The position numbers and the translations under genes were made by a program. 25,382 nt of DNA, taken from IMG/VR virus record IMGVR_UViG_3300036826_000647, positions 1 to 25,382 of that record; one strand, written 5' to 3'. This document shows, piece by piece, positions 776-24,292 of this stretch. The stretch comes from a virus. The stretch's first letter is position 1, and each line of letters opens with the position of its first letter. Below the pieces are notes generated by a model. That model had not been told where the DNA came from. It ran no database searches and saw only the letters and a program-made list of their open reading frames with translations.

Positions 776-1102
776 TTAATTTCTGTGAATTTCTTTGCTG
801 ATTGCTTCGATTAATAATGTATTCAAACTAATTCCGCGATATTTAGCTTCTATTGCTGCTTCTTTATGAATTTCAGGGGGCAGTCTAAGCATAAGATTTC
901 CAGAGAAAGGCTTTTCGGGGGATTTTTTAATCTTTTCACAAAATTCTAGGTAATCATCGATGGAGTCCTTGAAAGCTTGTTCTAATTGATCAACACTATA
1001 ACCTTGAAAAGTGATTACATCTTTTAATCCAATTACTTCTCCGTGAAAAACCTTGGCTTCGTCATCATAAATAGCCGTTCCTTGATATCCTTTATACTTC
1101 AT
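776..1102 (-). CDS. hicB: HicB-family antitoxin
   Basis: The 108-aa protein has the HicB layout. A degraded RNase H-like fold occupies about residues 1-65 (GYQGTAIYDDEAKVFHGEV, then a helix VDQLEQAFKDSIDDYLEFC). A ribbon-helix-helix DNA-binding part lies at about 70-105 (GNLMLRLPPEIHKEAAIEA, then GISLNTLLIEAISKEI). By family knowledge the first domain binds and blocks HicA, and the second binds the operator upstream of hicA. The start codon overlaps the hicA stop (ATGA), with TGGAG seven bases upstream, so the two are translationally coupled. The toxin-first order is normal for hicAB. In a phage this pair could act in superinfection exclusion or genome maintenance; that role is inferred. Confidence 0.9.
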   Translation of the reverse strand: MKYKGYQGTAIYDDEAKVFHGEVIGLKDVITFQGYSVDQLEQAFKDSIDDYLEFCEKIKKSPEKPFSGNLMLRLPPEIHKEAAIEAKYRGISLNTLLIEAISKEIHRN

Positions 1103-1353
1103 AGTTTTACTCCAGCACTTACTAAAAATTTTCTCACCGAAATTAAAGCTCCCTTATCTGTTTCTTTTCTAGGGTGGGGTCGATGAAAAACTGCAACTTG
1201 ATCATTAAGGTATATTCTAACTCTGGATCCTCTTCCTTCTTCTACAATCGCCCCCAATCCAATAAATAAAGTCTCAATATCTTTCCATTTTATATTAGAT
1301 AAAATGGGTTCATGAAAAATGGCTTTAAGCGTTGAAAGATGCTTATTTCTCAT
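1099..1353 (-). CDS. hicA: HicA-family toxin
   Basis: The 84-aa protein starts at the ATG at 1353 (MRNKHLSTLKAIF). A longer frame exists from a TTG at 1389, but the M-x-x-KH-x-x-TL start is typical of this HicA subfamily and the promoter lies just upstream. The fold is double-stranded-RNA-binding-like: helix IKWKDIETLFIGLGA, strands EEGRGSRVRIYLND and QVAVFHRPHPRKETDKGAL, then helix VRKFLVSAGVKL. Well-studied HicA toxins cleave mRNA using a histidine just after a Gly-Ser. Here that place reads GSR, as I recall it does across this subfamily, with histidines instead in HRPHP. The gene overlaps hicB by 4 bases. There is no SD, and the -10 box is 7 bases upstream of the ATG. Confidence 0.9.
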   Translation of the reverse strand: MRNKHLSTLKAIFHEPILSNIKWKDIETLFIGLGAIVEEGRGSRVRIYLNDQVAVFHRPHPRKETDKGALISVRKFLVSAGVKL

Positions 1354-1357
1354 ATTT

Positions 1358-1389
1358 GGTATGATACTAAATAACGATACCAATGGCAA
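1358..1389 (-). promoter_or_regulatory. hicA promoter and putative HicB operator
   Basis: Reading the minus strand, TTGCCA (1389-1384), a 17-base spacer and TATCAT (1366-1361) form a strong sigma70-type promoter. Seven bases separate the -10 box from the hicA ATG, so the transcript is predicted to begin at or next to the start codon (leaderless). An inverted repeat, GGTAT (1358-1362) and ATACC (1377-1381) with a 14-base centre, overlaps the -10 box and spacer. It is a natural site for autorepression by the HicB ribbon-helix-helix domain. Confidence 0.65.
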
Positions 1390-1563: not shown

Positions 1564-2163
1564 ATGACCTATAATCCTGCAATTCCACAAGCTAATGATA
1601 TTATTGCACAGTCTCAATCGCAAATTCAAACAAACTTCTCTCAAGCAGACTTGATTTTTGATGTAAACCATGTAACTTTTGATGATGCGACAGCTGCTGA
1701 TCGGGGTAAACATAGACAAATTGATTTTACTAGGTTGGTTGCGGATCCAGGTAGTGATGCTACACAATTGGCTTTATATGAAAAGTTATCAGGAACAAGT
1801 TCTGAATTGTTTTTTCAAAGAGATAACGTTGCAACTGTTACCCAATTAACCGGTGGAGGAATCACAGCCGCCGCTTGGTGTCAGTTTAATGGTAATACAG
1901 CAGGAACAAACCCTCCCACTCAAGGATTTAACGTTACATCAGTTCAACGTGTATCAGCTGGAAGTTATGTATTAAATTATACGCGGAATTTTACCACTAC
2001 AACTTATGCCATTGTTGTTTTTCCTAGTTTCAATTCAACAGGAGTAACTGTTCAAATAGGTGTAAGAAATGCTGCTGATACTAGTTTTTTGATTAGAAAC
2101 GGTGCTGCTGTTGCAACTGACTCAGGTGATATCAACGTAGTAGTTTTTGGGATTTTAGCATGA
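1564..2163 (+). CDS. Short fibre-like or tail-tip virion protein (199 aa)
   Basis: The start is fixed by AAAGGAAA just upstream of the ATG. The N-terminal ~50 residues (PQANDIIAQSQSQIQTNFSQ, then NHVTFDD and GKHRQIDF) match a motif that I recall recurring at the N-terminus of phage virion and fibre proteins. The C-terminal ~100 residues are Thr/Val/Asn-rich and beta-like (SVQRVSAGSYVLNYTRNF), as in small receptor-binding or capping domains. The stop overlaps the nozzle gene start (ATGA), so the two are coupled. The gene is the first of a tight run of virion genes after the tRNA/hicAB cassette. The exact location in the particle is not known from the sequence. Confidence 0.6.
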   Translation: MTYNPAIPQANDIIAQSQSQIQTNFSQADLIFDVNHVTFDDATAADRGKHRQIDFTRLVADPGSDATQLALYEKLSGTSSELFFQRDNVATVTQLTGGGITAAAWCQFNGNTAGTNPPTQGFNVTSVQRVSAGSYVLNYTRNFTTTTYAIVVFPSFNSTGVTVQIGVRNAADTSFLIRNGAAVATDSGDINVVVFGILA

Positions 2164-4427
2164 GTTCTTCTTTTGCAATTGTTAATTTAAGAGATGGTAT
2201 TCGAAGAGATATTGAGCCATTTTTAATTAACAATGACTCTTTTCCTACACTTGAAAATGCATATCTTTTTAGAGGACGAATTCAACGCAGATCTTGTTTC
2301 ACATCTGTGGGTAATGATGGAAGATTGAAAGGTACAATTGGAGTAACAGCCGCTTCCCCGTTTGTTACGGTTTTATTGGATGGTACTTTTGCACCAGGAA
2401 TACCAGAGGCGGTTGCAAGTTTTAGGATTGGCAATGTAATTTTAACAGATCCAGGAGGAGCTTCTCCTGTCGCTTTAATTAGTACCGATCCATTGTATTC
2501 TGGAACGTTAGATAGAGCCACTGGGGCATTAACTATTAATCATCCGGTAATAGCTCCTACCGCTGTTATATATGTTCCTGGATTGCCTGTAATGGGGCTT
2601 AGAGTTCGTGAACAGGTTGCTCTAAATGATGAATTATTAATCGGGTTCGATACACGATATTCTTACTTATTCGACATTGGAACTAATGATTTCATTTTTC
2701 AAAACACATTTGCTCTGACATTAAATACATTTATTTGGACTGGAACGGATTCGGATCTTTTTTGGTCGGTAAATTATTTTCAAGCATTTTGGGCTACAAA
2801 TAATATTGCTGGTTTTCATGCTGCGGAAAATGCTTCATTAATAGCAGAAAGAGATGGAATAAGATGGTACGGAACTTTACCAGGACCTATTCCACCGGGA
2901 ACTTCAGCTACAGGATGGAGAAACTTTAATCCCCAACTCACAACAGGTCCTAATACTTTTTTAACGGGTGGTTTAATTATTCTTCCCTATAAAAATAGAC
3001 TAGTTGTCTTAAATACTTTAGAAGGAGCGAATTTAGGAGCTACTACACGTTTTCCACAAAGAGCTAGATGGTGTCAAAATGGAACTCCCTTTTATGGAGA
3101 TTTTCCTGATGGTTCTTCGGCCCAAGTAGATTCATGGAGAAGCGATGTAGTTGGTAAAGGGAGTTTTATCGATGCACCAACTGCCGAATCAATTGTTTCA
3201 GCAGAGTTTATTAAAGACACACTCATCGTATATTTCGAAAGATCAACTTGGCAACTTGTATATACAGGAAATGAGGTCCTTCCTTTCGTTTGGCAAAAGA
3301 TAAATACAGAACTTGGAACAGAATCTACTTTTAGTATAGTACCTTTTGATAGAGGTGTATTTGGAGTGGGAAATTATGGTATTATCACATGCGATTCTGT
3401 CAACGTTCAAAGAATTGATCAAAAGATACCGGATGAAGTTTTTCAAATTCAAAATAAAAATGACGGGGTCAAGAGAGTTTATGGCATTAGGGACTATAAT
3501 GCTCAGCTTGTTTATTGGACTTTTCCTGTTAATTCTGACGAAGACAATGAAGCTCCCTCCTATGAATTAACATTCCCCAATCAAGTTTTAGTATTTAATT
3601 ATCTAGATGGCTCTTGGGCGGAATTTGATGATTGCTTTACTTGCTTTGGATACTGGCAAAGATTTTCAGACATTACATGGGCACAATTAAATCGTACCTG
3701 GGAATCATCTAATTTTTCTTGGAACTCAGGAATTCTACAAGCAAGATATCCAGATGTAATTGCGGGGAATCAACGTGGATTTGTTGTGGTTTTTTCTCAA
3801 TTACAGCAACTAGGACAAAATTCACCAAGTCTTCCGATTAGTAACATTAATCCTGCAACTCGTTTAATAACCGCTCCTAATCATAATTTGGTGAATAATC
3901 AATATGTCTTGATCACAGGAGTTCAAGGTACAACTGGAATCAATAACGTTATCTATAAAGTTACACAGGCAACAGTAAATACGTTTATTTTAGATACAGG
4001 AACATTTGTTGGTGTTTACACCGGTGGTGGACTGATTACTCATATGCCGAATATTTTTATAGAAACAAAACAATTCAATCCTTTCTATGAAAAATCTGAC
4101 AGTGTAAGAGTAAACTATTTGGACATTTATATCGATCGTACAACAGATGGGGAATTTGTTTCCAATTTTTACACAAGCAGCAATGAATCAGTAGTTATTG
4201 AAAGTGATACAATTTTAACATCGCCCGAACCGAACCCATCATTTTCTTCTAATCAAACTAGAATCTGGCATCGTGTTTTTTCTAATGTATTTGGATCATT
4301 TTTCCAAAACGTATTTACGATGAACGATGTTCAAATGAGAGATTTAGATATCACAACATCTGATATCAAGATTCATGGTTTAATCTATCAGGTAAGCCCA
4401 GCTGGTAGGATTTCTTATGACATTTAA
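2160..4427 (+). CDS. Tail nozzle / tubular tail protein-like
   Basis: The 755-aa protein begins with a stretch (INNDSFPTLENAYLFRGRIQ, then RRSCFTSVG) like the start of podoviral nozzle or tail-tube B proteins, where each gene product lists itself as a ring around the DNA channel. A long beta-rich body follows, with repeated blade-like segments (FIKDTLIVYFERSTWQLVY, then GVFGVGNYGIITCDSVNVQR), consistent with the beta-propeller of T7 gp12-type nozzles. Its length is close to gp12 (about 794 aa). Residues about 560-625 form a separate insert (PATRLITAPNHNLVNNQYV, then LITGVQGTTGINN) resembling the FCCH domain that many phage structural proteins carry. The start is coupled to the upstream gene and the end overlaps the next gene by 11 bases. 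Confidence 0.6.
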   Translation: MSSSFAIVNLRDGIRRDIEPFLINNDSFPTLENAYLFRGRIQRRSCFTSVGNDGRLKGTIGVTAASPFVTVLLDGTFAPGIPEAVASFRIGNVILTDPGGASPVALISTDPLYSGTLDRATGALTINHPVIAPTAVIYVPGLPVMGLRVREQVALNDELLIGFDTRYSYLFDIGTNDFIFQNTFALTLNTFIWTGTDSDLFWSVNYFQAFWATNNIAGFHAAENASLIAERDGIRWYGTLPGPIPPGTSATGWRNFNPQLTTGPNTFLTGGLIILPYKNRLVVLNTLEGANLGATTRFPQRARWCQNGTPFYGDFPDGSSAQVDSWRSDVVGKGSFIDAPTAESIVSAEFIKDTLIVYFERSTWQLVYTGNEVLPFVWQKINTELGTESTFSIVPFDRGVFGVGNYGIITCDSVNVQRIDQKIPDEVFQIQNKNDGVKRVYGIRDYNAQLVYWTFPVNSDEDNEAPSYELTFPNQVLVFNYLDGSWAEFDDCFTCFGYWQRFSDITWAQLNRTWESSNFSWNSGILQARYPDVIAGNQRGFVVVFSQLQQLGQNSPSLPISNINPATRLITAPNHNLVNNQYVLITGVQGTTGINNVIYKVTQATVNTFILDTGTFVGVYTGGGLITHMPNIFIETKQFNPFYEKSDSVRVNYLDIYIDRTTDGEFVSNFYTSSNESVVIESDTILTSPEPNPSFSSNQTRIWHRVFSNVFGSFFQNVFTMNDVQMRDLDITTSDIKIHGLIYQVSPAGRISYDI

Positions 4428-4911
4428 TCCTGTAAATAGTCTTGGACCATTCATTGCAACAAGCACATTTTTCCCTGAAAATTTTGAAGAATTTAGAGTT
4501 AAATTTCTTGAGTTATATAGAGATTTAGCAAATACCGTTAATACTCGTGAAGTAGGTATCTTTGATTTGCAGGAATTTCTAACAGGTGAGCAGTGGTTCA
4601 CAGTCGGTAATCCACAAGTCAAAAGGAGAACATATCGTAAATCGTTTGTTTTAGCTGCAACAGTTGCTGGTGCGACTACTGTTATTCCTCATGGAATTAC
4701 AGGAGTAAATACCACGACTACTTTCACGCATATATATGGTACATGTCTTACAGCAGTTCCCGATAATAGACCGATTCCTTATGCCTCGGTTACGAATGTG
4801 AATCAACAAATCGAAATCAATGTAGATGCAACTAATATTAATGTGATTAATGGAACTGCGGCGCCAAATATCACGAGTGGGATTGTGGTATTGGAGTATT
4901 TGAAGAATTAA
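4417..4911 (+). CDS. Virion structural protein, fibre/needle-like (164 aa)
   Basis: An SD (TAGGA) lies six bases before the ATG, which sits inside the end of the nozzle gene. The N-terminal half is helical with the motif FEEFRVKFLELYRDLANTVN, followed by TREVGIFDLQEFLTGEQWF, a pattern I associate with phage tail-tip or fibre-attachment proteins. After an RRTYRK basic patch the rest is beta-rich (IPHGITGVNTTTTFTHIYG) and looks like a small receptor-type sandwich. The organisation parallels the 199-aa gene: helical anchor, then beta tip. It ends in a 4-base convergent overlap with the endonuclease-like gene. The precise role is unknown. Confidence 0.5.
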   Translation: MTFNPVNSLGPFIATSTFFPENFEEFRVKFLELYRDLANTVNTREVGIFDLQEFLTGEQWFTVGNPQVKRRTYRKSFVLAATVAGATTVIPHGITGVNTTTTFTHIYGTCLTAVPDNRPIPYASVTNVNQQIEINVDATNINVINGTAAPNITSGIVVLEYLKN

Positions 4912-6059
4912 TTTCTTATTCTTTTAATATTATTAATGCTATTTATTCTATATTTTATACAAGTCCAACTGACATTATATTTTTTTGCTATTTCTGAAAT
5001 AGTCATTTCAGATTTTAAACAATTCCTTATTTCATTATTCGAAATTCCTGAACGATCATAAAATTCTCGTTTTTTTATTCCAAATTTTTTAAAAAGATAA
5101 GAAATCGCATTTGATGATACTCCAAATTCATTTTTAATTTCCTCTAAAGAAGCACCCTCTTTATATATTTTTTTTATTTTATCAAGATCATTAGATGTCA
5201 AATTATTAATAAAATACCAAGTTTTTCGAGGCATTTCTAAAGCTTTCTTATATGATACATTATATTTTTTAACTCTCATTCTTAATCCAGATTTAGAAAT
5301 ATTTTTTTCCTCTCTTAATTCATTTAATTTTCTTTTTCTTCCATTATAACTAATATATATACCTTGTTTTTTGGCAATTGATGATCTAAATTCTTCATTA
5401 GTAATTATTATGCAATTTTCAGGATTAAACTGTTTTTTTCCTTCTTTTAATATAATGACTTTACTTTCTTCCCAATTATGGCTAATTGCCCATTCATACA
5501 TATTTCTTCCATCATTTCTCCATAAATCGCAAACATTATAACCTTTTTTACCAAATTTTTTATAACTTGGATGTTTTGGATTATAACATTTATGAATTAG
5601 CATTGAGCGACATTGATAAAAATTATTCTGTGATGTTGTTAAAAAGCTTTGTTTTGGATAAAGAGAAGGATTTACCCATTTGGATTTTAACTTTCGTCCT
5701 AAACAGCCACAACTCATTGAATGTCTTGGCCTTTTTAAAGAATTATCTGCGACTATTCTTTCTATTCCACATTCGCATCTGCAATGCCATTGGGTTTTCC
5801 CTCTTTTATCTGGAGGAGCTCTTCCTATTACAGTCCATCTATAAAAAATTTTTCCAGTTAAATCAATTATTCTGCGCTCTTTAGTACAATGCGTACATTC
5901 AAATAAAGATCCTTTTTTAAATCGTGTATTCCAACATTTAAAAATTCTTTGACAGTCGCATATACATTCCCATATCGTATGTCCAAATCTTTTTTCTATA
6001 AATTTTAGAACTACGGCTCTTCCAATTCTTTTATTAATCAGCTCTTCAAGGTTAATCAT
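4908..6059 (-). CDS. Free-standing homing-endonuclease-like protein with two zinc ribbons
   Basis: The 383-aa protein has two N-terminal zinc-ribbon-like units: C32, C34/C36, C55, C58, and C93, C95/C97, C117, C119 (WHCRCECG, then SCGC). The second follows LTGKIFYRWTVIG, a typical start of AP2/HNH-type phage endonucleases. Residues about 147-235 resemble the nuclease core usually written MxxRCYNP...YGGRGI.VC.RW (here KCYNPKHPSYKKFGKKGYNV, then CDLWR), ending FNPENCIIITNEEF. The C-terminal 130 residues carry three helix-turn-helix-like units (LEEIKNEFGVSSNAISYLF; ISEIAKKYNVSWTCIKYRI). It sits antisense between virion genes, is richer in Lys/Ile than they are, and has no strong SD. It is probably a mobile intron-less homing gene; whether it is still catalytic is uncertain. 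Confidence 0.65.
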   Translation of the reverse strand: MINLEELINKRIGRAVVLKFIEKRFGHTIWECICDCQRIFKCWNTRFKKGSLFECTHCTKERRIIDLTGKIFYRWTVIGRAPPDKRGKTQWHCRCECGIERIVADNSLKRPRHSMSCGCLGRKLKSKWVNPSLYPKQSFLTTSQNNFYQCRSMLIHKCYNPKHPSYKKFGKKGYNVCDLWRNDGRNMYEWAISHNWEESKVIILKEGKKQFNPENCIIITNEEFRSSIAKKQGIYISYNGRKRKLNELREEKNISKSGLRMRVKKYNVSYKKALEMPRKTWYFINNLTSNDLDKIKKIYKEGASLEEIKNEFGVSSNAISYLFKKFGIKKREFYDRSGISNNEIRNCLKSEMTISEIAKKYNVSWTCIKYRINSINNIKRIRN

Positions 6060-6144
6060 ATATATAAAAATTTTATAAGCTGTAGGTGATAAAATTTCCA
6101 GTTAAAATAATTTTTTGATACTCTGGAGAAAAAAGGATCAATTT

Positions 6145-6726
6145 ATGTCAGTTCCGGCAGGCTATGAAGCATTTTCTACTTTCAATCCACAACAAGCACA
6201 ATTATTTCAACAACTACTAGCTTCTCTTGGAGGGACTCAAGGATTGAATCAAAATCCTTTATTCCAAAGTGGCCAAACTTATCTTCAAAATCTTTTATCA
6301 GGCTCACCTGAAGCGTTTGAGCAATTTGAAAGACCTTTCAAGCGACAATTCGAAGAACAAACTATTCCAGCACTTGCTGAAAGATTTTCAAGTATGGGAG
6401 CTGGTGCACAAAGATCAGGTGCATTTCAACAAGCTCTTTCGCAGGCGGCAGCCGGACTTTCTGAAAACTTAGCTTCATTACGTGGACAATTACAATTAGG
6501 TGCAATACCTCAAGCTTTAGGTTTTGCCCAAGCTCCTTTTAATCAACTTCAATCACTTCTTGGAATGAATACAATGGGATTTACACCAAAACAGAAACCT
6601 TGGTGGCAAGAATTATTAACAGGCGCTGCTCCTGGAATTGGTCAAGCGGCAGGTTTGGGAGGATTAGCAGGACTTTCTAAAATCCCCGGATTAGGATTTT
6701 TACAAAATATGTTTGGTAAGGGATAA
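6145..6726 (+). CDS. Probable internal virion protein (193 aa)
   Basis: The ATG at 6145 (MSVPAGYEAFSTF) is chosen over the upstream in-frame ATG at 6115 because AAAAGGA lies seven bases before it. The protein is rich in Gln, Ala, Leu and Gly, helical in the middle (PALAERFSSMGAGAQRSGAF), and ends in a hydrophobic Gly-rich stretch (GQAAGLGGLAGLSKIPGLGF) that could insert in a membrane. Small Ala/Gln-rich proteins placed after the tail genes and before larger helical proteins are often ejection proteins in podoviruses. No family was recognised with certainty. The next gene follows after 3 bases. Confidence 0.5.
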   Translation: MSVPAGYEAFSTFNPQQAQLFQQLLASLGGTQGLNQNPLFQSGQTYLQNLLSGSPEAFEQFERPFKRQFEEQTIPALAERFSSMGAGAQRSGAFQQALSQAAAGLSENLASLRGQLQLGAIPQALGFAQAPFNQLQSLLGMNTMGFTPKQKPWWQELLTGAAPGIGQAAGLGGLAGLSKIPGLGFLQNMFGKG

Positions 6727-6729
6727 ATT

Positions 6730-7746
6730 ATGCCACAAGTACAAATATTAGAAGGTGTTCCAAGCTTTGGACAAAAATTAGGAAGAGGGTTGGGGAGTGG
6801 AATTAGCCAAGGATTGACTCAGTCTTTAGAAGAGTTTCATAAAAAAAGACAATTAGAATTAGAAACAAATAAATTTCAAAAACTTGGATATCCAGAGCCA
6901 CTTGCCCGTTTAGCTGCAGGTGCCACCGTAGGAGGTAAAACCGAAGTTCTTAAAGAAGTGTTAGATGAATTCAAACGAGGAAATCTAGGACAATTTCCAA
7001 TTAATAACCAAAATATTCAAGATACTCCTGAACGAGTGGAAGATAATGAAATTCAATCTGCAATTCAAAAATCTAGACTTCAAGATCAAGGATTAACGGC
7101 AAAAGAAAAAATAGCAAGATCAGCGGAAAGGTATAAAACAGGATTGCCCGTCTTTCAGGAAGCAGGAACAAAATTAAGAGGAATGAGTCGTGATAAAGAA
7201 CGTATTCAAATTTTAGATAACTTAAATGAATCTAAAAGGCTTCCTCATGATTTTGGAAGATTGAACGTTGATAAAGATGGAAATCTACACTTCGCTTTTG
7301 CAACTACTCCTGAAGCTCAAAGATTTGTAAAAACATTGAACGAATTTTCAGCCGGAGCTAAAGATACATTTGGTTCCCGTGTAACAAATTTTGACTTACA
7401 GCAATACCTTCAAAGATTTCCCACTCTTCTTAATTCTGAGGAAGGGAGAAGACAAATTTTGCAGCAAATGAAAATAGTAAACGATATTAATTCTATTTAT
7501 TATAAAAATTTGAAAAAAGTTTATGATTCTGCGGGTGGCGTAAGAAATATTGATTCAGATGTGGCTGAGTCTATAGCTGAAAAACGATCTGAAAACGAAA
7601 TTGATAAATTATCTAAAAAATTTGATACGATTGGTCAATTTACGACTCTTCCAGATCCTTCAAAAATGAAAGGAGCTACTTTTATTGATGATGAAACTGG
7701 AGAAAAATTAAGAAGCGACGGAAAAAATTGGATACCGGTAAACTAA
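6730..7746 (+). CDS. Probable internal virion (ejection) protein (338 aa)
   Basis: The protein is mainly helical and charged. It opens with a Gly-rich amphipathic segment (FGQKLGRGLGSGISQGLTQS), then helical stretches with many Lys/Glu/Gln, and a small C-terminal beta motif (GATFIDDETGEKLRSDGKNW) of the kind found at the ends of structural proteins. It is flanked directly by the 193-aa and 430-aa genes (spacing 3 and 0 bases), so the three probably form one translation unit. An ejection-protein role is inferred from composition and position. A scaffold or minor tail protein cannot be excluded. Confidence 0.45.
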   Translation: MPQVQILEGVPSFGQKLGRGLGSGISQGLTQSLEEFHKKRQLELETNKFQKLGYPEPLARLAAGATVGGKTEVLKEVLDEFKRGNLGQFPINNQNIQDTPERVEDNEIQSAIQKSRLQDQGLTAKEKIARSAERYKTGLPVFQEAGTKLRGMSRDKERIQILDNLNESKRLPHDFGRLNVDKDGNLHFAFATTPEAQRFVKTLNEFSAGAKDTFGSRVTNFDLQQYLQRFPTLLNSEEGRRQILQQMKIVNDINSIYYKNLKKVYDSAGGVRNIDSDVAESIAEKRSENEIDKLSKKFDTIGQFTTLPDPSKMKGATFIDDETGEKLRSDGKNWIPVN

Positions 7747-9039
7747 ATGGCTTATCGATTACTAGAAGAAGAAAAATCAGATAAAAATATTCCCAAACAG
7801 ATCGGTCAAGAATTAGTAAGAACTCCTGCTCGTACTGCGTCCAATTTAGTTACACGCGGAATTGGATTACCAGGTGATGTTTTATCATTAGTAAATGAAC
7901 TAGCAGCACGTCCTATTACAAAAGCTCTAACTGGAAAAAAAACTCTCCCTTATGAAGAAACTTTTTTGGGAAAAGCCATTCCAACGACTCAAACACATAG
8001 AAAAGGAATTGAATCTGTAACTGGTGATTTTTTAAAACCAAAAAATAAGATTGAGGAATTTACGGATAACCTTATTGAAGATACAGCTTTAATGTTAATT
8101 CCTGGAGGAAAACTTGGAAAAGCCCAAGAAGGTCTTTCAAAAGTTCAACAGTTAATTAAACAAGTTCCATCTAGTTTTTTTAAATCTTTAGGCGCTAATC
8201 TTACTGGAGAAGTAGCAAAACAATTTTCTGGAGACAGAGAGGATGTTGGTAACTTAGCAAAAGTCGGTGCTTTTTTTGCGCTTTCTTTATTCGATAAGGG
8301 TAGATCAACTAAATATATTTCTGATTTATACCAACAAGCTGAAAAAAATTTACCTAAAAATGCTACAACTTCTGCTGAAAATTTATCCAAAAATCTAGAA
8401 ACATTGGAAAATTCTATTACTAAAGCAAGACCCGTAGAAAATTTAGCAGATTCAGAAAAATTTGTATTAAATTCAATAGATAAAACTCGTAGTTTAATCA
8501 AAGATGGAAAAATAAACATTGGACAAGCATGGGCTCAAAAAAGAAGTTTCAATGAAGAACTTACAAAAAAACTGTACGAAATCCCTGGTAAAGAAGGACA
8601 ACATAGGGCTCGTAAATTAGCCAAACAAGTAAATCATTGGTTAAATAACGTTATAGAAAATTATGGAGAAAAAAACCCTGAATTTTATAAACCTTATAAA
8701 AATGCTGAAGAAGGATTTGGTACAATTGCACAATCCAATTTTATTTCCAGATTTATAGAAAATAATCTTAAATATTCCCCATTAACAGCTGGTTTATTGC
8801 ATATTTTTGGAGCTCCTATTGGCGCAGCAGCTGCAAAAAGTGTTATACCATATCAAGTAGGGAAAATAGGATACCGTATTTGGAATTCTCCAACTCTTAG
8901 AAATCATTATTTAAATGCTGTAAAAGCTGCTTCTAAGGAAAATATTAGTATTTTTACTAAAGAATTAAAAAAATTAGATGAAAAACTTCAAGAAGAAGAA
9001 AATGTACCTAAATATAGATTTTTAGGCTATGAGAATTAA
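7747..9039 (+). CDS. Probable internal virion protein with hydrophobic segments (430 aa)
   Basis: The ATG immediately follows the preceding stop. The N-terminal third has the pattern GQELVRTPARTASNLVTRGI, followed by GLPGDVLSLVNELAA, seen in proteins that phages deliver with their DNA. The middle is a long Lys/Glu-rich helical region (LSKNLETLENSITKARPVEN). About residues 345-375 include a hydrophobic segment (LTAGLLHIFGAPIGAAAAKS) that could span or insert in a membrane. A Lys/Glu-rich coiled tail ends the protein. The three genes from 6145 to 9039 resemble an ejectosome set by size order and composition; no enzymatic domain was seen. The stop codon overlaps the end of the convergent 25-aa ORF. 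Confidence 0.45.
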   Translation: MAYRLLEEEKSDKNIPKQIGQELVRTPARTASNLVTRGIGLPGDVLSLVNELAARPITKALTGKKTLPYEETFLGKAIPTTQTHRKGIESVTGDFLKPKNKIEEFTDNLIEDTALMLIPGGKLGKAQEGLSKVQQLIKQVPSSFFKSLGANLTGEVAKQFSGDREDVGNLAKVGAFFALSLFDKGRSTKYISDLYQQAEKNLPKNATTSAENLSKNLETLENSITKARPVENLADSEKFVLNSIDKTRSLIKDGKINIGQAWAQKRSFNEELTKKLYEIPGKEGQHRARKLAKQVNHWLNNVIENYGEKNPEFYKPYKNAEEGFGTIAQSNFISRFIENNLKYSPLTAGLLHIFGAPIGAAAAKSVIPYQVGKIGYRIWNSPTLRNHYLNAVKAASKENISIFTKELKKLDEKLQEEENVPKYRFLGYEN

Positions 9040-9113
9040 AGATCACCTTTATCTATTGAACTAATAAACCAAATAATTCCTAAAATTGCTGAAATTCCAT
9101 ATATGTATGTCAT
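9036..9113 (-). CDS. Tiny membrane protein (25 aa), last of the minus-strand micro-operon
   Basis: The frame encodes MTYIYGISAILGIIWFISSI plus a charged end (DKGDL), a single hydrophobic helix with the charged tail after it. The start codon overlaps the stop of the 75-aa gene (TAATG), with AAAGGA six bases before the ATG, so the translation signals are good for such a short frame. The stop overlaps the convergent 430-aa gene. Function is unknown; single-helix phage peptides can act in lysis timing or membrane exclusion. Confidence 0.5.
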   Translation of the reverse strand: MTYIYGISAILGIIWFISSIDKGDL

Positions 9114-9127
9114 TATTTATCCTTTAT
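9111..9127 (-). repeat. 17-bp stop-start repeat, copy 1
   Basis: The 17 bases CATTATTTATCCTTTAT (+ strand) occur here and at 9475-9491. Each copy spans the last codons (IKDK-stop) of one gene, an SD (AAAGGA) and the TAATG start of a tiny hydrophobic ORF. Confidence 0.85.
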
Positions 9128-9340
9128 TTTTCCGTGAGTTCCAGTATCTTTAGATTCATAGCGATCCCTTTCATCGAATCTAATTTCTACTCTAGTCAAA
9201 CGAACATCTATAGATTTTAACTCTTGTTTAATTTCTTTAAGCTCTGTTTTTAGATTTCTAGAAAATAGCCATACTATAACAAGAATGCTCAAAATGTTTT
9301 GAATATCAAAGCCTTGTAAAAATTGTATGATTTGATCCAT
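9113..9340 (-). CDS. Small membrane protein with coiled coil (75 aa)
   Basis: AAGGAAA five bases before the ATG supports this start. Residues about 12-27 form one membrane helix (IQNILSILVIVWLF). They are followed by a charged heptad-like helix (LKEIKQELKSIDVRLTRVEI) and a polar tail ending GTHGKIKDK. The C-terminal half resembles that of the 69-aa gene at 24083-24292 (RRDLRSLDSRISRIEG and GTHDK), so the two are probably paralogues. The layout (one helix, then coiled coil) is like XhlA-type or Rz-like lysis accessory proteins, but no specific family is recognised. It lies in the alphaCTD-like micro-operon and its stop overlaps the next start. Confidence 0.7.
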   Translation of the reverse strand: MDQIIQFLQGFDIQNILSILVIVWLFSRNLKTELKEIKQELKSIDVRLTRVEIRFDERDRYESKDTGTHGKIKDK

Positions 9341-9351
9341 ATATTTTCCTT

Positions 9352-9411
9352 TTAACTATAAATCCCGACAAGAACAACCAAAATAAAAAGTCCTAACCAT
9401 ATACCGAACAT
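9352..9411 (-). CDS. Tiny hydrophobic ORF (19 aa)
   Basis: MFGIWLGLFILVVLVGIYS is almost entirely a membrane helix. It lies between the 18-aa and 75-aa ORFs on the same strand, 9 bases after the former's stop. No SD is visible, so translation would depend on re-initiation from the ORF upstream. It is listed because all small frames in this operon are hydrophobic; alone it would not be convincing. Confidence 0.35.
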   Translation of the reverse strand: MFGIWLGLFILVVLVGIYS

Positions 9412-9420
9412 TTTTATCGT

Positions 9421-9477
9421 CTATATTAAAGTACAAAATGCCCAAATACAAACTATTGCTAAAAGTAGTGTCGACAT
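9421..9477 (-). CDS. Tiny hydrophobic ORF (18 aa) coupled to the alphaCTD-like gene
   Basis: MSTLLLAIVCIWAFCTLI is one hydrophobic helix with two cysteines. Its ATG overlaps the stop of the alphaCTD-like gene (TAATG), with AAAGGA six bases before. The same signal occurs before the 25-aa ORF, within a 17-base repeat, which makes accidental occurrence less likely. Function is unknown. Confidence 0.45.
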   Translation of the reverse strand: MSTLLLAIVCIWAFCTLI

Positions 9478-9491
9478 TATTTATCCTTTAT
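9475..9491 (-). repeat. 17-bp stop-start repeat, copy 2
   Basis: This is identical to 9111-9127. It covers the end of the alphaCTD-like gene (IKDK-stop), its SD and the TAATG start of the 18-aa ORF. The repeat suggests duplication of a gene-end/tiny-ORF unit. Confidence 0.85.
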
Positions 9492-9869
9492 AAGTTCTTC
9501 AATCTCACTTTCTAAAAATTCTATTTCTTGTTTAGCTTTTATAATTCTTTTGGTTCTATTATCAATACTTTTCTTTAATCTTTCAAGCCTTAATTCATTA
9601 GGAGATTTATGAACTTTTGAAGAAATTAAAGAAATATTTAATGGTGAATTTTCAAATTTAGGATGTTTTTTTAATTTTCTTTGAATTTCTTTTAAAGATT
9701 GAATTCCAAAATTTCTGCATCTTAACAAACGAGCAACAGAAGTATTTAAAAGATCTTCAATTGTAATAATATCGGACCAACCAGCTAAACTATTACATAT
9801 TCTTGTGGATAAACCAAATTCTTTTAATTCATTTACAATTTCAGGTTGATTCATCTTTTCGTTTTCCAT
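9477..9869 (-). CDS. Stand-alone RNA polymerase alphaCTD-like protein with C-terminal coiled coil
   Basis: Residues about 13-69 read like the C-terminal domain of bacterial RNA polymerase alpha: FGLSTRICNSL, then TIEDLLN, then RCRNFGIQSLKEIQRKLK. Against E. coli alpha, the DNA-contact positions R265, N268, G296 and S299 correspond to R23, N26, G55 and S58, all kept; K298 is Gln here. A few extra residues (AGWSDI) lie after the first helix. Residues 90-130 are a Lys/Glu-rich coiled coil (RIIKAKQEIEFLESEIEELI) in place of the alpha N-terminal domain. The ATG at 9869 has GGAG eight bases upstream, inside the overlapping 38-aa ORF. The protein could bind UP-element-like DNA or contact sigma or activators and so redirect host polymerase; that is inference. 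A generic helix-hairpin-helix DNA-binding protein is the alternative. Confidence 0.75.
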   Translation of the reverse strand: MENEKMNQPEIVNELKEFGLSTRICNSLAGWSDIITIEDLLNTSVARLLRCRNFGIQSLKEIQRKLKKHPKFENSPLNISLISSKVHKSPNELRLERLKKSIDNRTKRIIKAKQEIEFLESEIEELIKDK

Positions 9870-9957
9870 GTGGAATACTCCAATAAATTCCCCATCCTAT
9901 TATACAAATTGCAAAAATAATAGGAAACCAAATGCTGAAAAAGAATTTCAAAAACAT
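9841..9957 (-). CDS. Small membrane protein (38 aa), first gene of the micro-operon
   Basis: A perfect SD (AGGAGG, five bases before the ATG) and a promoter upstream support this short gene. It encodes a single hydrophobic helix (FFFSIWFPIIFAICIIGWGI) and a charged tail HGKRKDEST. Its 3' end overlaps the alphaCTD-like start by 29 bases, so the two are probably coupled. The best translation signal in the operon belongs to this peptide, which argues that it is made in quantity. No family was recognised; a holin-like or membrane-anchor role is possible. Confidence 0.65.
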   Translation of the reverse strand: MFLKFFFSIWFPIIFAICIIGWGIYWSIPHGKRKDEST

Positions 9958-9987
9958 AAATTTCCTCCTTTTACTCTCTATTCTACA

Positions 9988-10015
9988 TTTCTAGTCATCT
10001 CTTTTCAATTGTCAA
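9988..10015 (-). promoter_or_regulatory. Promoter of the minus-strand micro-operon
   Basis: On the minus strand, TTGACA (10015-10010), 16 bases, then TAGAAA (9993-9988). It is followed by a short leader with AGGAGG and the 38-aa ORF. It is divergent from the fibre promoter, with 26 bases between the two -35 boxes. Confidence 0.55.
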
Positions 10016-10041
10016 TATTTTTATATTTTTCAAAAAATTTT

Positions 10042-10070
10042 TTGACACTTTTGTTTTACCCTAGTATTGT
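10042..10070 (+). promoter_or_regulatory. Promoter of the fibre gene block
   Basis: TTGACA (10042-10047), a 17-base spacer and TATTGT (10065-10070) form a good sigma70-type promoter. It precedes a leader of about 25 bases with AAGG upstream of the 10102 ATG. Confidence 0.65.
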
Positions 10071-10101: not shown

Positions 10102-12321
10102 ATGGTACAAAAAATAAGACCACAGGCTGCGACACTTTATGGGTTGCCCCAGCCGACTAATAATCAAAATCCACTACCCATTAAAGCACGTAGAGCACCT
10201 CTAACAACTGACACTGGATACGATCTGGGACAAGTTTGGATTGATATTGTTGGTGGCGACGCTTTTACACTCACTCAAGTTTCTGCCGGCGTTGCAAACT
10301 GGGTAATTTCAGGAGCAAGTTCTGGGCCATTAAATACTCTTACTGGTGATAGCGGAGGAGCGATTTCTCCTGTAGCTGGTAACATCAACCTTTTCGGAAC
10401 AGGAAGCCAAATCGAAACAACAGGTGCAGGAGCGGATATAACATTTAGTATCCCTTTAGCATTTGTAGCTCCGGGAAGTATTGCTTCTACAACAGGTATG
10501 CAAGCGGGTACTACTTTAACTTCCGCTGGTGCTACTACACTTGCAACAACAGGTGCGAGTATCAATACATTTGGTAACGCGACAGGCGCAACTTCTATAA
10601 CGATCACTTCTGGATCGGGTGGTACATCACTTGTTTCTACAAACTCAACGATGTCTCTTGCTTCTGGAACAGGCGCAATGAATATCAGTGCTGATGCTAC
10701 AGCAAACGCTGTAAACGTGGGAACTGGTGCAGGTGCTAAGACAGTTACAATTGGATCGACAAATACTACTTCTACAACAACTCTCCAAGCAGGAACTGGT
10801 GGTTTTGCTTTTACATCTGGTAATGGTGCAATCACAATCAACTCTGGAACAGGAACAATTGGTATTTCAACAGATGCCGCAGCAACTACAGTAAATATAG
10901 CTACTGGCGCAGGTGCTAAAACGGCAACATTTGGATCTACAAATACAACTTCTGCAACGACTGTTCAGTCTGGAACAGGAGCATTGAATATTACTTCTAC
11001 AAATGGTGCTCAAACTCATAATTCCGGAACAGGAGTCATGGGAATCAGCACAGATGCTGCTGCAACAACTGTTAACGTAGCAACTGGTGCTGGCGCAAAA
11101 ACAGCAACGTTTGGATCTACAAATACAACTTCTGCAACAACAGTACAGTCTGGTTCTGGTGCGCTTGCAATTACGGCAACAAATGGAACAATTACTGCTA
11201 ACTCAGGTACAGGAACTATCGGAGTAAGTACAGATGCTACTGCTACAACAGTGAACATTGCAACAGGAGCAGGAGCTAAAACTGCAACCTTCGGTTCTAC
11301 CAACACAACATCAGCAACTGTAGTTGGTTATGGAACAGGAAACTTGAGCATCGATGGCGCAGCTACAGGAAACGTAACGATCGCTCCAAGTGCTACATCA
11401 GGTACATTCAATCTTGGTGGAACAGGTGCTAACACAGGAACTGCTACAATATTTGGTGGGACAGGTGCACAAACAATCAATATTGCCAACTCAACTGGTG
11501 GTAAAACTCTTAACGTAGCAACCGGTGCTGGAGCTAATATCGTTGCTATCGGAAGTACAAACACTACATCTTCTCTTACAGAGAGAGTAGGAACAGGTAA
11601 CTACAGCTTAGATGGTGCTGCAACGTCGACATATACATTCGCTCCAAGTACAACTTCTGGAACGATTAACTTCGGTGGAACAGGTGCTAATACAGGAACA
11701 ATGACGATTGCCGGTGGTACAGGAGCTCAAACAATTAACGTTGCTAACTCAACAGGTGGTAAAACAGTTGCGATCGCTACAGGAGCTGGAGCGAATGCGG
11801 TAACTCTCGGATCAACAAACACAACTTCTGCTACAACAATCAACTCAGGATCAGGCAACTTAACTTTAGTTGGTAACGTTGTTCAAAGTACTAACCCATG
11901 TTTCTTAGAATACTTAGCTGCAACTGCAGTAAATAAAACAGGGGATGGTACTTCTTACACAATAGGTGCTGATGCATTAACTGAAGTATTTGATAGAGGT
12001 GGAAATGCTACTACAGCAGGGGTATTTACTGCTCCTGTTACTGGTATTTACGATTTAAGAGCACAAGTAGCCTTTACTGGTGCAACAATTGCAACAACAT
12101 TTGTGATCAATATCGTAACAACAGCAGCAACTTATACAAAAACATTTATTAAGGCAGCTGGTGCTCAAGATGAAACGATTGATATTAACGTTCTTGCTGA
12201 TATGGCAGCTACCAATACCGCAACAGTAACTGTAGTAGTAAGTGGTGAAGCTGCAGCAACAGTAGATATCTTAGGCGGAGCTACAAGAACAACATATTTC
12301 TGTGGAAGATTAGTAGGATAA
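10102..12321 (+). CDS. Large repetitive fibre/adhesin with C1q-like tip (739 aa)
   Basis: The N-terminal ~75 residues (LTTDTGYDLGQVWIDIVGGD, then AFTLTQVSAGVANWV) resemble a virion-attachment domain seen on phage fibres. Residues ~79-117 hold a module (LTGDSGGAISPVAGNINLFG) shared with the next fibres. The shaft from about residue 209 consists of repeats beginning GAGAKTATFGSTNTTSATT: three of 60 residues, then two of 86, then a partial one. Only small residues are used, as in a beta-helix or triple-beta shaft. Residues ~598-739 form a C1q/TNF-like globular tip (GVFTAPVTGIYDLRAQVAF, end TYFCGRLVG). The role is presumably receptor binding. It is the first gene after a strong promoter, and its GC content is visibly higher than that of the early genes. 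Confidence 0.7.
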   Translation: MVQKIRPQAATLYGLPQPTNNQNPLPIKARRAPLTTDTGYDLGQVWIDIVGGDAFTLTQVSAGVANWVISGASSGPLNTLTGDSGGAISPVAGNINLFGTGSQIETTGAGADITFSIPLAFVAPGSIASTTGMQAGTTLTSAGATTLATTGASINTFGNATGATSITITSGSGGTSLVSTNSTMSLASGTGAMNISADATANAVNVGTGAGAKTVTIGSTNTTSTTTLQAGTGGFAFTSGNGAITINSGTGTIGISTDAAATTVNIATGAGAKTATFGSTNTTSATTVQSGTGALNITSTNGAQTHNSGTGVMGISTDAAATTVNVATGAGAKTATFGSTNTTSATTVQSGSGALAITATNGTITANSGTGTIGVSTDATATTVNIATGAGAKTATFGSTNTTSATVVGYGTGNLSIDGAATGNVTIAPSATSGTFNLGGTGANTGTATIFGGTGAQTINIANSTGGKTLNVATGAGANIVAIGSTNTTSSLTERVGTGNYSLDGAATSTYTFAPSTTSGTINFGGTGANTGTMTIAGGTGAQTINVANSTGGKTVAIATGAGANAVTLGSTNTTSATTINSGSGNLTLVGNVVQSTNPCFLEYLAATAVNKTGDGTSYTIGADALTEVFDRGGNATTAGVFTAPVTGIYDLRAQVAFTGATIATTFVINIVTTAATYTKTFIKAAGAQDETIDINVLADMAATNTATVTVVVSGEAAATVDILGGATRTTYFCGRLVG
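10726..11781 (+). repeat. Fibre shaft repeats: three of 180 bp and two of 258 bp
   Basis: In-frame units start at 10726, 10906, 11086 (60 codons each), 11266 and 11524 (86 codons each); a partial unit follows at 11782. All begin with codons for GAGA(K/N) and contain GSTNTTS. The longer units add the segment GGTGANTGT and TGGKT. DNA identity between adjacent units is high, so unequal recombination could change shaft length. Confidence 0.9.
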
Positions 12322-15265: not shown

Positions 15266-16012
15266 ATGGTTTCAGCAAATAACGCGATTTATAATACAGT
15301 TGGTGCATCGATTTCAGGTGTTACTAATACACTTACAGTTACCAACCCTTCAAATACAGCATCTTCAGCAGCTAGAGAAACCATTGTAGTAGGTGGTGCA
15401 ACGGCAGCAGATCCTACATTAAATTGGAATGTTAGCGGAGTAACGAATTGGGAGATGGGAATAGATAACTCGGATTCCGATAAATGGAAGTTATCTCAAG
15501 GAACAGCACTTGGGACAAACGACACTATAGTAGCTTTTACTGCAGGACAAGTTCTTTTACCACGTCAACCAGCTTTTTTAGCTGTCGTAACAGCAACCCA
15601 AAGTAACGTTACTGGTGATGGCACAGTTTATACTGTAATTTTTGACTCCGAAATTCAAGATATTGGAGGTAACTACAATACCGCTACCGGTACTTTTACA
15701 GCTCCAGTTGCTGGCACTTATTTTTTTACAGCAGCTATTAATATGACAGGTATAAATGTAGGCCATAGCTCTGGAATTATGGACATAGTTGTAAATGGGA
15801 CTACTTTCTATCACGGAAATGGTGGTGGTCCATTCCAACAATCCGATGGAAACAATTTAGACTGGATGGCAACTGTTGCCGTTCCGTTAAGTGCAGGAAA
15901 TACAGTAACCTCTACTATAAACATCGCCGGAGGAGCAAAAGTAGTAGATGTCCTTGGTACAGTAGCCGTTGGACAGCGAGTTACCCATTTCTCAGGGTGG
16001 TTGTTAGGCTAA
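15266..16012 (+). CDS. Short fibre protein with C1q-like domain (248 aa)
   Basis: A short leader with AGGGA precedes the ATG at 15266. Residues ~10-95 include a shaft/attachment module (LNWNVSGVTNWEMGIDNSDS, then DKWKLSQG) common on phage fibres. Residues ~100-248 form a C1q/TNF-like jelly roll (FLAVVTATQSNVTGDGTVYT; TGTFTAPVAGTYFFTAAINM; end THFSGWLLG). C1q-like tips are trimeric and bind surface ligands, so this is probably another receptor-binding protein. The tip resembles that of the 739-aa fibre. A remnant of a third such end lies directly downstream. Confidence 0.7.
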   Translation: MVSANNAIYNTVGASISGVTNTLTVTNPSNTASSAARETIVVGGATAADPTLNWNVSGVTNWEMGIDNSDSDKWKLSQGTALGTNDTIVAFTAGQVLLPRQPAFLAVVTATQSNVTGDGTVYTVIFDSEIQDIGGNYNTATGTFTAPVAGTYFFTAAINMTGINVGHSSGIMDIVVNGTTFYHGNGGGPFQQSDGNNLDWMATVAVPLSAGNTVTSTINIAGGAKVVDVLGTVAVGQRVTHFSGWLLG

Positions 16013-17862: not shown

Positions 17863-18708
17863 TTAAGTCAATATCGAAGTACGCCATTTTACATAAGATG
17901 GTTTGCGATACTTTTCTACATCAACACTTTGAATCTCAGGTATTTTTGAATACTCAATCGCCCCTTTTGTCATCGATTTAGTCAACTTGATTCCGCAACC
18001 TTTTGCGTTGCGACCTGAAGAAAATAAAACAAACTGAGCCCTTAAAAAAGTTCTTTCTTCTTCAAGTTCTTCTAGTATCTTATCGATCTCTTTATAACGT
18101 GGAGCAAGCTCTTGCCAGTTTTCATCACCATCCATATCCACCCAATCAAGATCGGTAAATTCTGGAGCTTCTAAATTATTGATACAATCCCAAAAAGCTT
18201 TCTCTTCTTTGATTAAATTGGAAATGTATTTTTTATCTTTTTCAACTTCAACAATCACTCCATCGTCACCATCAAAGCTGAAGTAATACATGCTATCTAA
18301 TCCACTTACTTCTAGTTGATGTTGGCATTGTGGATAATACTTTTGAGGAATTTTACCATCTTTAGCAGATTGATGATCGTTACGATTAGGACATTTAATC
18401 TCTACTAGATGTTTACGATTAGAAGAGATTCCATCAACAGTTGCTGTCATCCAATTTATTTCTGGATGTTTTAAAACTTCTGGAAAAACTTCAATTCCAA
18501 ATTTTTTCTCAAAACAATGACGAGCTGATTCTTCGAGTTTGTTTCCTCGAAACATCGCACCATTCATAGTTTGTTCTTTACCAAAAACCTTTTCTTCCCA
18601 TAATTGGTAAGGAGATTTATAAGGCGATACCCTCATGATAACAGGAGCGTCACTGCTTCCTACAGTGGCTCTCCTTTTTTCTTTCCATTCTTTAGATCCT
18701 ATCTCCAT
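17863..18708 (-). CDS. YqaJ-family recombination exonuclease
   Basis: The 281-aa protein has the YqaJ/lambda-exonuclease-type PD-(D/E)XK core. The N-terminal motif is RRATVGSSDAPVIMRVSPYK, followed by PYQLWEEK; then GNKLEESARHCFEKKFG (E59/E60), ATVDGI with D92, LVEIKCP with E103 and K105, and QCQHQ (127-131). By family knowledge it degrades one strand of double-stranded DNA ends 5' to 3' for single-strand annealing. The C-terminal ~100 residues are a helical extension (IDKILEELEEERTFLRAQF). It starts one base after the ERF stop, so the two form a recombination pair acting on replication intermediates. Confidence 0.9.
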   Translation of the reverse strand: MEIGSKEWKEKRRATVGSSDAPVIMRVSPYKSPYQLWEEKVFGKEQTMNGAMFRGNKLEESARHCFEKKFGIEVFPEVLKHPEINWMTATVDGISSNRKHLVEIKCPNRNDHQSAKDGKIPQKYYPQCQHQLEVSGLDSMYYFSFDGDDGVIVEVEKDKKYISNLIKEEKAFWDCINNLEAPEFTDLDWVDMDGDENWQELAPRYKEIDKILEELEEERTFLRAQFVLFSSGRNAKGCGIKLTKSMTKGAIEYSKIPEIQSVDVEKYRKPSYVKWRTSILT

Positions 18709-18709
18709 G

Positions 18710-19288
18710 TTACACTTCCTGTAGTTCAGATTTCTTTGCTTTTAAATAGTTCACAAATCCTGTGACTTCTTCTGTTTTTAGATCATGAATCGAATTCACC
18801 TTCTTGATCTTTTTTAGCTTTTCCACTTCGTTTGGATAATCTTTTAAAAGGATATCTAAAGAGTTCTTCTGAGGTTTTTCTTCTCTAACGATCTCCATTG
18901 CTTTTTCGGCGTCATCATCTTCGTTATAGGGACACACTCCTGCAATCGCAGCCAGTGCATAACGTCTTGCATAAGTAATGGCAGAGCCGATAGATTGAGG
19001 ATCTCTTTTGGTTACAATAACGGGCAGAGAACTCTTAATCCATTCTCCGGAAGAGTGTGCTAGAGTGGTTATTAAAATTATTTCCTCATTTTTACTTTCC
19101 ATAGTTTGGATAACCGCAAGGCCATTTTCAGTTAGGGGCTTTTTGCAGGCTCTCCAAATACTGGATAAATCAGCGTACTGACTTTTAAAAAAAGGGTTCT
19201 TACTATCTTCTCTAGCACCCTCAATTTGATTTTGAGCTTTTGATAAAGCTTCTGTTAATTTTGCAATTGATTCACTTTGTAAACTCAT
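18710..19288 (-). CDS. erf: ERF-family single-strand annealing protein
   Basis: The 192-aa protein matches the ERF family: ALSKAQNQIEGAREDSKNPF, FFKSQYADLSSIWRACKKPL, NGLAVIQTME, a strand LITTLAHSSGEWIKSSLPV, and the signature DPQSIGSAITYARRYALAAI followed by GVCPYNEDDDAE. Such proteins bind single-stranded DNA as rings and anneal complementary strands, used in genome circularisation and recombination. The C-terminal ~55 residues are a charged tail, probably for contacting partner proteins. GGAG lies five bases before the ATG. The YqaJ exonuclease follows immediately, as in many phages. Confidence 0.92.
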   Translation of the reverse strand: MSLQSESIAKLTEALSKAQNQIEGAREDSKNPFFKSQYADLSSIWRACKKPLTENGLAVIQTMESKNEEIILITTLAHSSGEWIKSSLPVIVTKRDPQSIGSAITYARRYALAAIAGVCPYNEDDDAEKAMEIVREEKPQKNSLDILLKDYPNEVEKLKKIKKVNSIHDLKTEEVTGFVNYLKAKKSELQEV

Positions 19289-21404: not shown

Positions 21405-21638
21405 ATGGGAAGAAATTGTACCTATATTGCGGCATATTTATTGATATTTTACGGAATTGTTGACGGCACAATTGTAGACGTACATTTAGGCAATGACGGA
21501 GAATCCCATCAAATGGACAGAGAAAGACGTTCGATTGAATCTGAAAGAGATTTAGAAACTGTTCATAACGAAGAAGCCTCTCCTCAAGAAAGACAAGAAG
21601 CGATGGATAGAATGATGCAAAACCATGAGATTGCTTAA
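21405..21638 (+). CDS. Small protein with N-terminal hydrophobic segment (77 aa)
   Basis: AAGGAGG before the ATG is a strong SD. Residues ~6-24 are hydrophobic (TYIAAYLLIFYGIVDGTIV) and could be a signal anchor. The remaining 50 residues are highly charged and helical (ESERDLETVHNEEASPQERQ, then EAMDRMMQ). No family was recognised. The layout, a membrane segment followed by an acidic helix, repeats the theme seen in several other genes here. Its stop overlaps by four bases the end of the convergent 51-aa gene. Confidence 0.6.
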   Translation: MGRNCTYIAAYLLIFYGIVDGTIVDVHLGNDGESHQMDRERRSIESERDLETVHNEEASPQERQEAMDRMMQNHEIA

Positions 21639-21790
21639 ACTTTAAAAATAGGATTGAATTTAGAAACCGGCTCTGGAGGTGGAAAATACCTTTCCTCTAA
21701 TTTCACTAATATAAAAGCAAGAGTAAAAAAACCTACGAATACGTAAATAATTAGACGAAATCCTTCGTTTTCACGCCAGAGTTTGATCAT
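21635..21790 (-). CDS. Small membrane protein with proline-rich end (51 aa)
   Basis: The ATG overlaps the stop of the 69-aa gene upstream (ATGA), so the two are coupled. After a polar start (MIKLWRENEGFR) comes one membrane helix (LIIYVFVGFFTLAFILVKL), then a short tail with ERYFPPPEPVSKFNP. The pair, a membrane/coiled-coil protein followed by an overlapping short membrane protein with a proline-rich end, is reminiscent of spanin-type lysis pairs. However, there is no lipoprotein signal and no endolysin nearby, so this remains a weak suggestion. Confidence 0.6.
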   Translation of the reverse strand: MIKLWRENEGFRLIIYVFVGFFTLAFILVKLEERYFPPPEPVSKFNPIFKV

Positions 21791-21996
21791 GATTTTCTAC
21801 TTTTTTCAATCTCTAGTAATCGATAATGAAAATCTTTCATTAAATTGATATTCTCCTTGTGAACCTCATGAATTAAATCACGATTCGCTTTTAATTGAAC
21901 ATCCATATGCCGAGAATCAGCTCTCGCTTCAGCTCTTTGCCATAACCACAATCCAAAAACACCTAAGAAAAATATTACAAATTGAACCCACTCCAT
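21787..21996 (-). CDS. Small membrane protein with helical tail (69 aa)
   Basis: AAGGAG five bases before the ATG fixes the start. Residues ~3-20 form a membrane helix (WVQFVIFFLGVFGLWLW), followed by QRAEARADSRH and a charged helix to the end (IHEVHKENINLMKDFHYRLL). It belongs to the same architectural class as the 75-aa and other 69-aa genes, though the residues are not clearly related. It forms a two-gene minus-strand unit inside a plus-strand cluster, arguing for separate acquisition or separate timing. Function is unknown. Confidence 0.65.
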   Translation of the reverse strand: MEWVQFVIFFLGVFGLWLWQRAEARADSRHMDVQLKANRDLIHEVHKENINLMKDFHYRLLEIEKSRKS

Positions 21997-23958: not shown

Positions 23959-24093
23959 CTATTTAACGACTTTTAACTCTTCTTTGTTGCTTAAACGCTC
24001 ATAGAGTATTTGTAAAATAACTTCTAGAGCATTCACTTTTCCCTCTAGAAAACTAATCCTGCCAGTAAGATCTGATATAACTTTATTTGTCAT
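23959..24093 (-). CDS. Small coiled-coil protein (44 aa)
   Basis: The ATG at 24093 lies inside the end of the 69-aa gene (11-base overlap), with AAGGA four bases upstream. The protein is one heptad-patterned helix (ISDLTGRISFLEGKVNALEV, then ILQILYERL) with a charged end. The RIS..LEG segment echoes SRISRIEG in the upstream gene, so the two might form a mixed coiled coil. No family was recognised. Confidence 0.55.
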   Translation of the reverse strand: MTNKVISDLTGRISFLEGKVNALEVILQILYERLSNKEELKVVK

Positions 24094-24292
24094 GAGTTCC
24101 TTCTCTTTTCATATCCTTAACTTCTAAAATGCCTTCAATTCTAGAGATTCTGCTATCTAAACTTCGAAGATCCCTTCTAACTTCCGTAAAGTTGGATTCT
24201 ATTTTTTCAAACTTTCTATTTAAAATGGTCACAATTGAAATTATGGTGCCCACAGCAGTGCATATAGCTATAACAACATTAGACCAATCCAT
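24083..24292 (-). CDS. Small membrane/coiled-coil protein (69 aa), paralogue of the 75-aa gene
   Basis: AGGGA six bases before the ATG fixes the start. Residues ~5-25 are a membrane helix (NVVIAICTAVGTIISIVTIL). Then comes a charged coil (FEKIESNFTEVRRDLRSLDS, then RISRIEG) and the end KREGTHDK. The coil and the GTH(D/G) end resemble the gene at 9113-9340, pointing to duplication. Both are minus-strand genes placed at boundaries of plus-strand blocks, each overlapping a second small ORF. Function is unknown; anchors for membrane-associated complexes or lysis accessories are possible. Confidence 0.7.
   Translation of the reverse strand: MDWSNVVIAICTAVGTIISIVTILNRKFEKIESNFTEVRRDLRSLDSRISRIEGILEVKDMKREGTHDK

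Follow-up and report, generated by a model that had tools for sequence, protein, structure and literature searches.

The 25,382-nt window analysed here, which is the whole of an IMG/VR virus record with a GC content of 36%, carries an accessory gene for a 130-aa protein in which a free C-terminal domain of the RNA polymerase alpha subunit (alphaCTD) is followed by a predicted coiled coil. The gene, identified from the ORF list, Pfam and codon use, lies at 9477..9869 on the minus strand, the strand being corrected here; it starts with ATG, with GGAG 8 nt upstream. Codon use scored 0.203 in its own frame and at most 0.046 in the other five frames, and own-frame codon use fits that of the other genes of the phage. 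The best reading of its function, which is put forward tentatively, is that of a DNA-binding protein, paired through the coiled coil, which recognises the A/T-rich minor groove and acts on phage, and perhaps host, promoters.

The Pfam family PF03118 (RNA_pol_A_CTD) matched the protein with an E-value of 2.9e-12 and 46.6 bits (cut-off 23.8), over residues 4-68 (9666..9860, minus strand) and profile positions 4-67 of 67, and no other Pfam family scored above its own cut-off. Eight NCBIfam RpoA models matched by their C-terminal ends only and far under their equivalog cut-offs (39.4 bits against 277, at model positions 246-310 only); the protein is therefore not a full RpoA, and this pattern is what is expected of a free alphaCTD. 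The best PDB sequence match was the alphaCTD chain 9zum (Caulobacter by title). In the single-sequence model the domain was poor and the helix at residues 90-129 confident; a second model, built with an alignment of 15 phage alphaCTD domains, had block-mean pLDDT values of 82-91 over residues 11 to 70 (about 90 for the domain) and 84 overall. The best 27 PDB rows in the Foldseek search of this model were all RNA polymerase alpha chains, bacterial or plastid, with E-values that were weak (best 0.03), as expected for a small domain. Superposition in VIA was best on solved alphaCTDs, with a middling Z of 7.7 and an rmsd of 1.7 Å over 56 residues, and other helix-hairpin-helix (HhH) domains gave Z 5.7-6.5 (archaeal Hjm 6.5, then Dmc1 and RAD51). 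It is the profile score and the structure together that decide the identity, as the structure alone is insufficient. The sequence-only reading had proposed a free alphaCTD, with assignment to a different HhH family as the outcome that would speak against it; profile and fold both agree with the proposal and rank alphaCTDs top, although Hjm, RAD51 and Dmc1 come fairly close in Z. The same ranking led to rejection of a repair or ribosomal HhH family.

Alignment with E. coli K-12 RpoA showed that R265, N268, N294, G296, S299 and E302 are kept (as R23, N26, N53, G55, S58 and E61), so that the four equivalents picked out earlier from the sequence (R265, N268, G296 and S299) were all correct. The changes are V264T, C269S, K297I, K298Q, E261G, E286V and E288R; K271 is absent, as are the activator-contact residues at the C-terminal end, and the sigma-side D259 is replaced by E. 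In E. coli the DNA-contact set of the alphaCTD is R265, N268, C269, G296, K298 and S299, while E261 faces sigma, and E286 and E288 face CAP or activators. Four of the six DNA-contact residues are kept, the differences being C269S and K298Q. Across 16 stand-alone phage alphaCTDs, including the present one, R23, N53, G55, S58 and E61 do not vary; at the positions of K298 and K297, which are Q and I here, 14 of the 15 others have K and R. The earlier suggestion of contact with the UP element or activators is half supported: DNA contact is plausible, but K298 and K297 are lost and the residues facing sigma and CAP are mostly gone. The domain could thus plausibly bind DNA, perhaps more weakly or with another specificity, as loss of the K298, K297 and K271 equivalents may lower its affinity, and contacts of the E. 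coli type to sigma and activators appear doubtful.

Residues 90-129 (9483..9602, minus strand) were predicted as a single long helix with pLDDT 93-98, and the heptad a/d positions in residues 90-130 read N-L-L-I-R-I-A-I-L-I-L-K, mostly I or L, with 0.9% of shuffles as good (p about 0.009). From the confident helix and the heptad pattern, the predicted C-terminal coiled coil is well founded. It had been suggested to replace the assembly domain of alpha; the coiled coil stands, but the replacement is not a simple one, as the coil comes after the alphaCTD and the assembly domain of RpoA before it. Compared with the bacterial RpoA C-terminal domain (PF03118; PDB 3n97, 3k4g, 9zum, 7vpd), the phage protein has the fold, the full domain length and the six kept residues in common at about 30-37% identity, whereas it has no assembly domain, carries its alphaCTD at the N-terminus ahead of the coil, and lacks K298, K297, E261, E286 and E288.

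The gene is part of a leftward cassette of tightly overlapped ORFs on the minus strand. Its start is overlapped by a 38-aa single-span hydrophobic peptide ORF (9841..9957) with an AGGAGG Shine-Dalgarno sequence, and its stop by the ATG of an 18-aa hydrophobic ORF (TAATG; 9421..9477). A 19-aa hydrophobic ORF (9352..9411), a 75-aa protein with a membrane span and a coiled coil, both judged by eye (9113..9340), and a 25-aa hydrophobic ORF coupled to the 75-aa gene by TAATG (9036..9113) complete it. The 18- and 19-aa ORFs were read from the sequence, and the tiny hydrophobic ORFs are probably coding, to judge from the Shine-Dalgarno sequences and TAATG overlaps. An identical 17-nt ATAAAGGATAAATAATG occurs at 9107-9125 and 9473-9490 (minus strand), where the 75-aa and alphaCTD genes end; each copy leads via the TAATG overlap into a tiny hydrophobic ORF, and it is read as a shared ribosome-binding/start junction. 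No alignment was found between the 75-aa protein and the alphaCTD protein that would point to a common origin of their coiled coils. More small leftward proteins with hydrophobic spans, with a general look like that at 9113-9340, lie at 21635-21996 and 24083-24292 (minus strand).

Upstream of the cassette, a 26-bp A/T tract containing one C (10016..10041) lies between divergent promoter-like sites: TTGAAA-17-TAGAAT (9980..10008, minus strand) before the cassette and TTGACA-17-TATTGT (10042..10070, plus strand) before the tail-fibre-type gene at 10102-12321, the label of which comes from its repeats and place. Promoter-like matches were no more frequent than in shuffles. The window contains three such A/T tracts against 0.3 in mono-nucleotide shuffles. 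At the homologous site in three relatives without the alphaCTD gene (L002, L004 and L006) there was no A/T tract; L002 and L006 have bases resembling the promoter-like site of 10042-10070 in the corresponding position. The tract fits a candidate UP-like binding site for the alphaCTD protein, with one case behind the link. The tail-fibre-type gene (plus strand) encodes a 739-aa protein with many imperfect repeats of TGAGAKT.TFGSTNTTS and a C-terminal domain of a type common to the product of 15266-16012.

Under the promoter-binding reading, the alphaCTD half would bind the minor groove of A/T-rich, UP-element-like DNA, and the coiled coil would dimerise the protein so that two alphaCTDs are presented together, resembling the two alpha subunits in RNA polymerase. 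The protein would most likely sit on the A/T tract that precedes both its own leftward cassette and the rightward promoter of the tail-fibre-type gene, where UP-dependent transcription by the host polymerase would be tuned, probably by repression or competition; an effect on strong host UP-element promoters may be a by-product or the aim. The family, the fold, the kept residues, the coiled coil and the A/T tract beside the gene, which L002, L004 and L006 lack at that site, were counted in favour, and purified free alphaCTD suffices to bind A/T-rich UP-type sequence in vitro at B. subtilis spoVG (PMC2801614). Counted against it were the lost K298, K297 and K271 equivalents, the single case that links protein and tract, and promoter-like matches at shuffle level.

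Stand-alone alphaCTDs turned out to be widespread in phages, which removes the uniqueness implied earlier. They are found in at least 18 viral contigs besides the present one (alphaCTD-based scans of viral contigs with chosen patterns gave at least 19 loci among the matches listed), and all 18 records then searched scored above the Pfam alphaCTD cut-off, with ORFs of 98-192 aa. The present protein is of the same kind: it is a small ORF of a phage record, above the cut-off and with no assembly domain. Extensions vary, being N-terminal (L024, L020), C-terminal (L013, L019, L021, L023, L027) or hardly present (L016). Some further matches, from the 'phages' collection, have the look of host rpoA genes whose records were misfiled or contaminated. 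In a 178-kb phage record, two neighbouring genes (L020:5680-7231) each carry an alphaCTD segment and another, possibly helix-turn-helix, segment.

The five best BFVD rows of the model are named as phage alphaCTD proteins, and several from uncultured phages already carry such a name in UniProt. A0A6J5SA90, A0A6J5L490 and A0A6J5N2B9 (uncultured Caudovirales phages; 'RNA polymerase, alpha subunit, C-terminal') are likewise small phage alphaCTD proteins and represent the best viral-library matches of the model, but their extensions differ from that of the present protein. Gp005 of the isolated Bacillus phage vB_BmeM-Goe8 ('RNA polymerase subunit alpha', 210 aa) is also an alphaCTD without the rest of alpha, although its domain is C-terminal, behind a 145-aa unknown N-terminal part, and the phage is a large member of the Herelleviridae. 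The 161.6-kb linear record encodes it twice, at 2.4 kb and at 156.5 kb, which agrees with a terminal repeat. In SPO1-like phages the terminal repeat houses early take-over genes, and as the Goe8 copies near both ends fit such a region, they were counted for the promoter-binding reading. Outside RpoA, the BREX kinase PglW (NF033442, PDLC02512) has an alphaCTD-like segment followed by more sequence that also aligns weakly; unlike the present protein it is a 1,400-aa kinase, and the match is weak and far under cut-off.

The open literature searched yielded no study of free alphaCTDs encoded by phages or of their function; the present protein adds to a kind that is annotated and, as far as found there, functionally unstudied. 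Phages hit the host polymerase in many ways, and a loose copy of the polymerase's own domain is unstudied in the searched papers; host alpha is targeted in the case of Rac (PMC7552054) and used at Mu Pm (PMC4390567). As the domain occurs in at least 18 viral contigs with varied fused parts, any real function would be general. It is conceivable, if improbable, that phage-made dimeric alphaCTDs outcompete or replace those of the host polymerase at UP elements and so re-rank promoter strength, with the extensions (the coiled coil or other helical segments) choosing the partner; if true, this would be a widespread and unnoticed phage route to re-rank promoters in the infected cell.

The alternative that survives best, although we regard it as unlikely, is a polymerase-facing decoy or bridge, in which the free alphaCTD would bind host sigma region 4, an activator or NusA instead of the real alphaCTD and host transcription would be shut down or redirected, the coiled coil adding a second partner. 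The alphaCTD is a hub bound by proteins such as Spx and CAP (PMC4496699, PMC2801614), free alphaCTDs recur in many phages, and the placing of the Goe8 copies suits an early region; however, the E261, E286 and E288 equivalents are G, V and R, the C-terminal activator contacts are missing, and the gene is accessory and lies in the structural part of the genome, outside any evident early take-over module. A slightly less credible alternative is that the domain serves as an HhH DNA-binding module with no link to polymerase, in packaging, replication, recombination or protection of phage DNA. The fold is generic, as the Z-scores of the Hjm, RAD51 and Dmc1 chains illustrate, the alphaCTD gene of L025 stands beside replication or recombination-type genes (judged by eye), and PglW shows an alphaCTD-like segment in a kinase, but profile and fold put the protein with alphaCTDs and not with repair HhH families.

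Besides the tail-fibre-type gene at 10102, the window encodes structural proteins (2160-9039); RecE-like and Erf-like recombination genes lie at 17863-19288, and there are also genes for a RusA-like resolvase and a replication-initiator-like product. Eight related phage records, several of them fragments, were found by the 755-aa structural protein, and no alphaCTD was detected in them, some being partial, at E up to 10. L002, L004 and L006 have the homologous interval, which holds other small leftward genes, and the alphaCTD gene is accordingly accessory. The least probable of the alternatives, that it is a moron gene of the membrane-peptide cassette whose alphaCTD is losing function or acts indirectly in control of lysis or superinfection, would suit the eight records without the gene, the varied slot, the overlapping hydrophobic peptide ORFs and the lost basic DNA-contact residues, but the gene has kept its reading frame, domain core and codon use intact.

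No close relative of the exact protein was found in viral contigs, annotated phages gave weak matches only, and PHROGs held no family for it or for the phage alphaCTDs tried. Genome contigs, searched with window-specific patterns that leave RpoA and distant relatives outside the sample, likewise gave no close relative, and the structural protein, used there as a host search, had no match. In L002 (16681-16887) and L006 (17400-17606), a conserved 68-aa protein (MTNEKRYLTMTQFC...) that belongs to no known family is encoded where the window has its alphaCTD gene. Elsewhere in the window, a 383-aa HNH-endonuclease-like protein with helix-turn-helix parts (4908-6059, minus strand; phrog_374, 5.6e-36) is inserted leftward between structural genes, and a HicA/HicB toxin-antitoxin pair (776-1389, minus strand; Pfam 3.1e-10 and 3.4e-19), encoded on the other strand from the structural genes, adjoins a tRNA-Thr(tgt) at 1406-1478.
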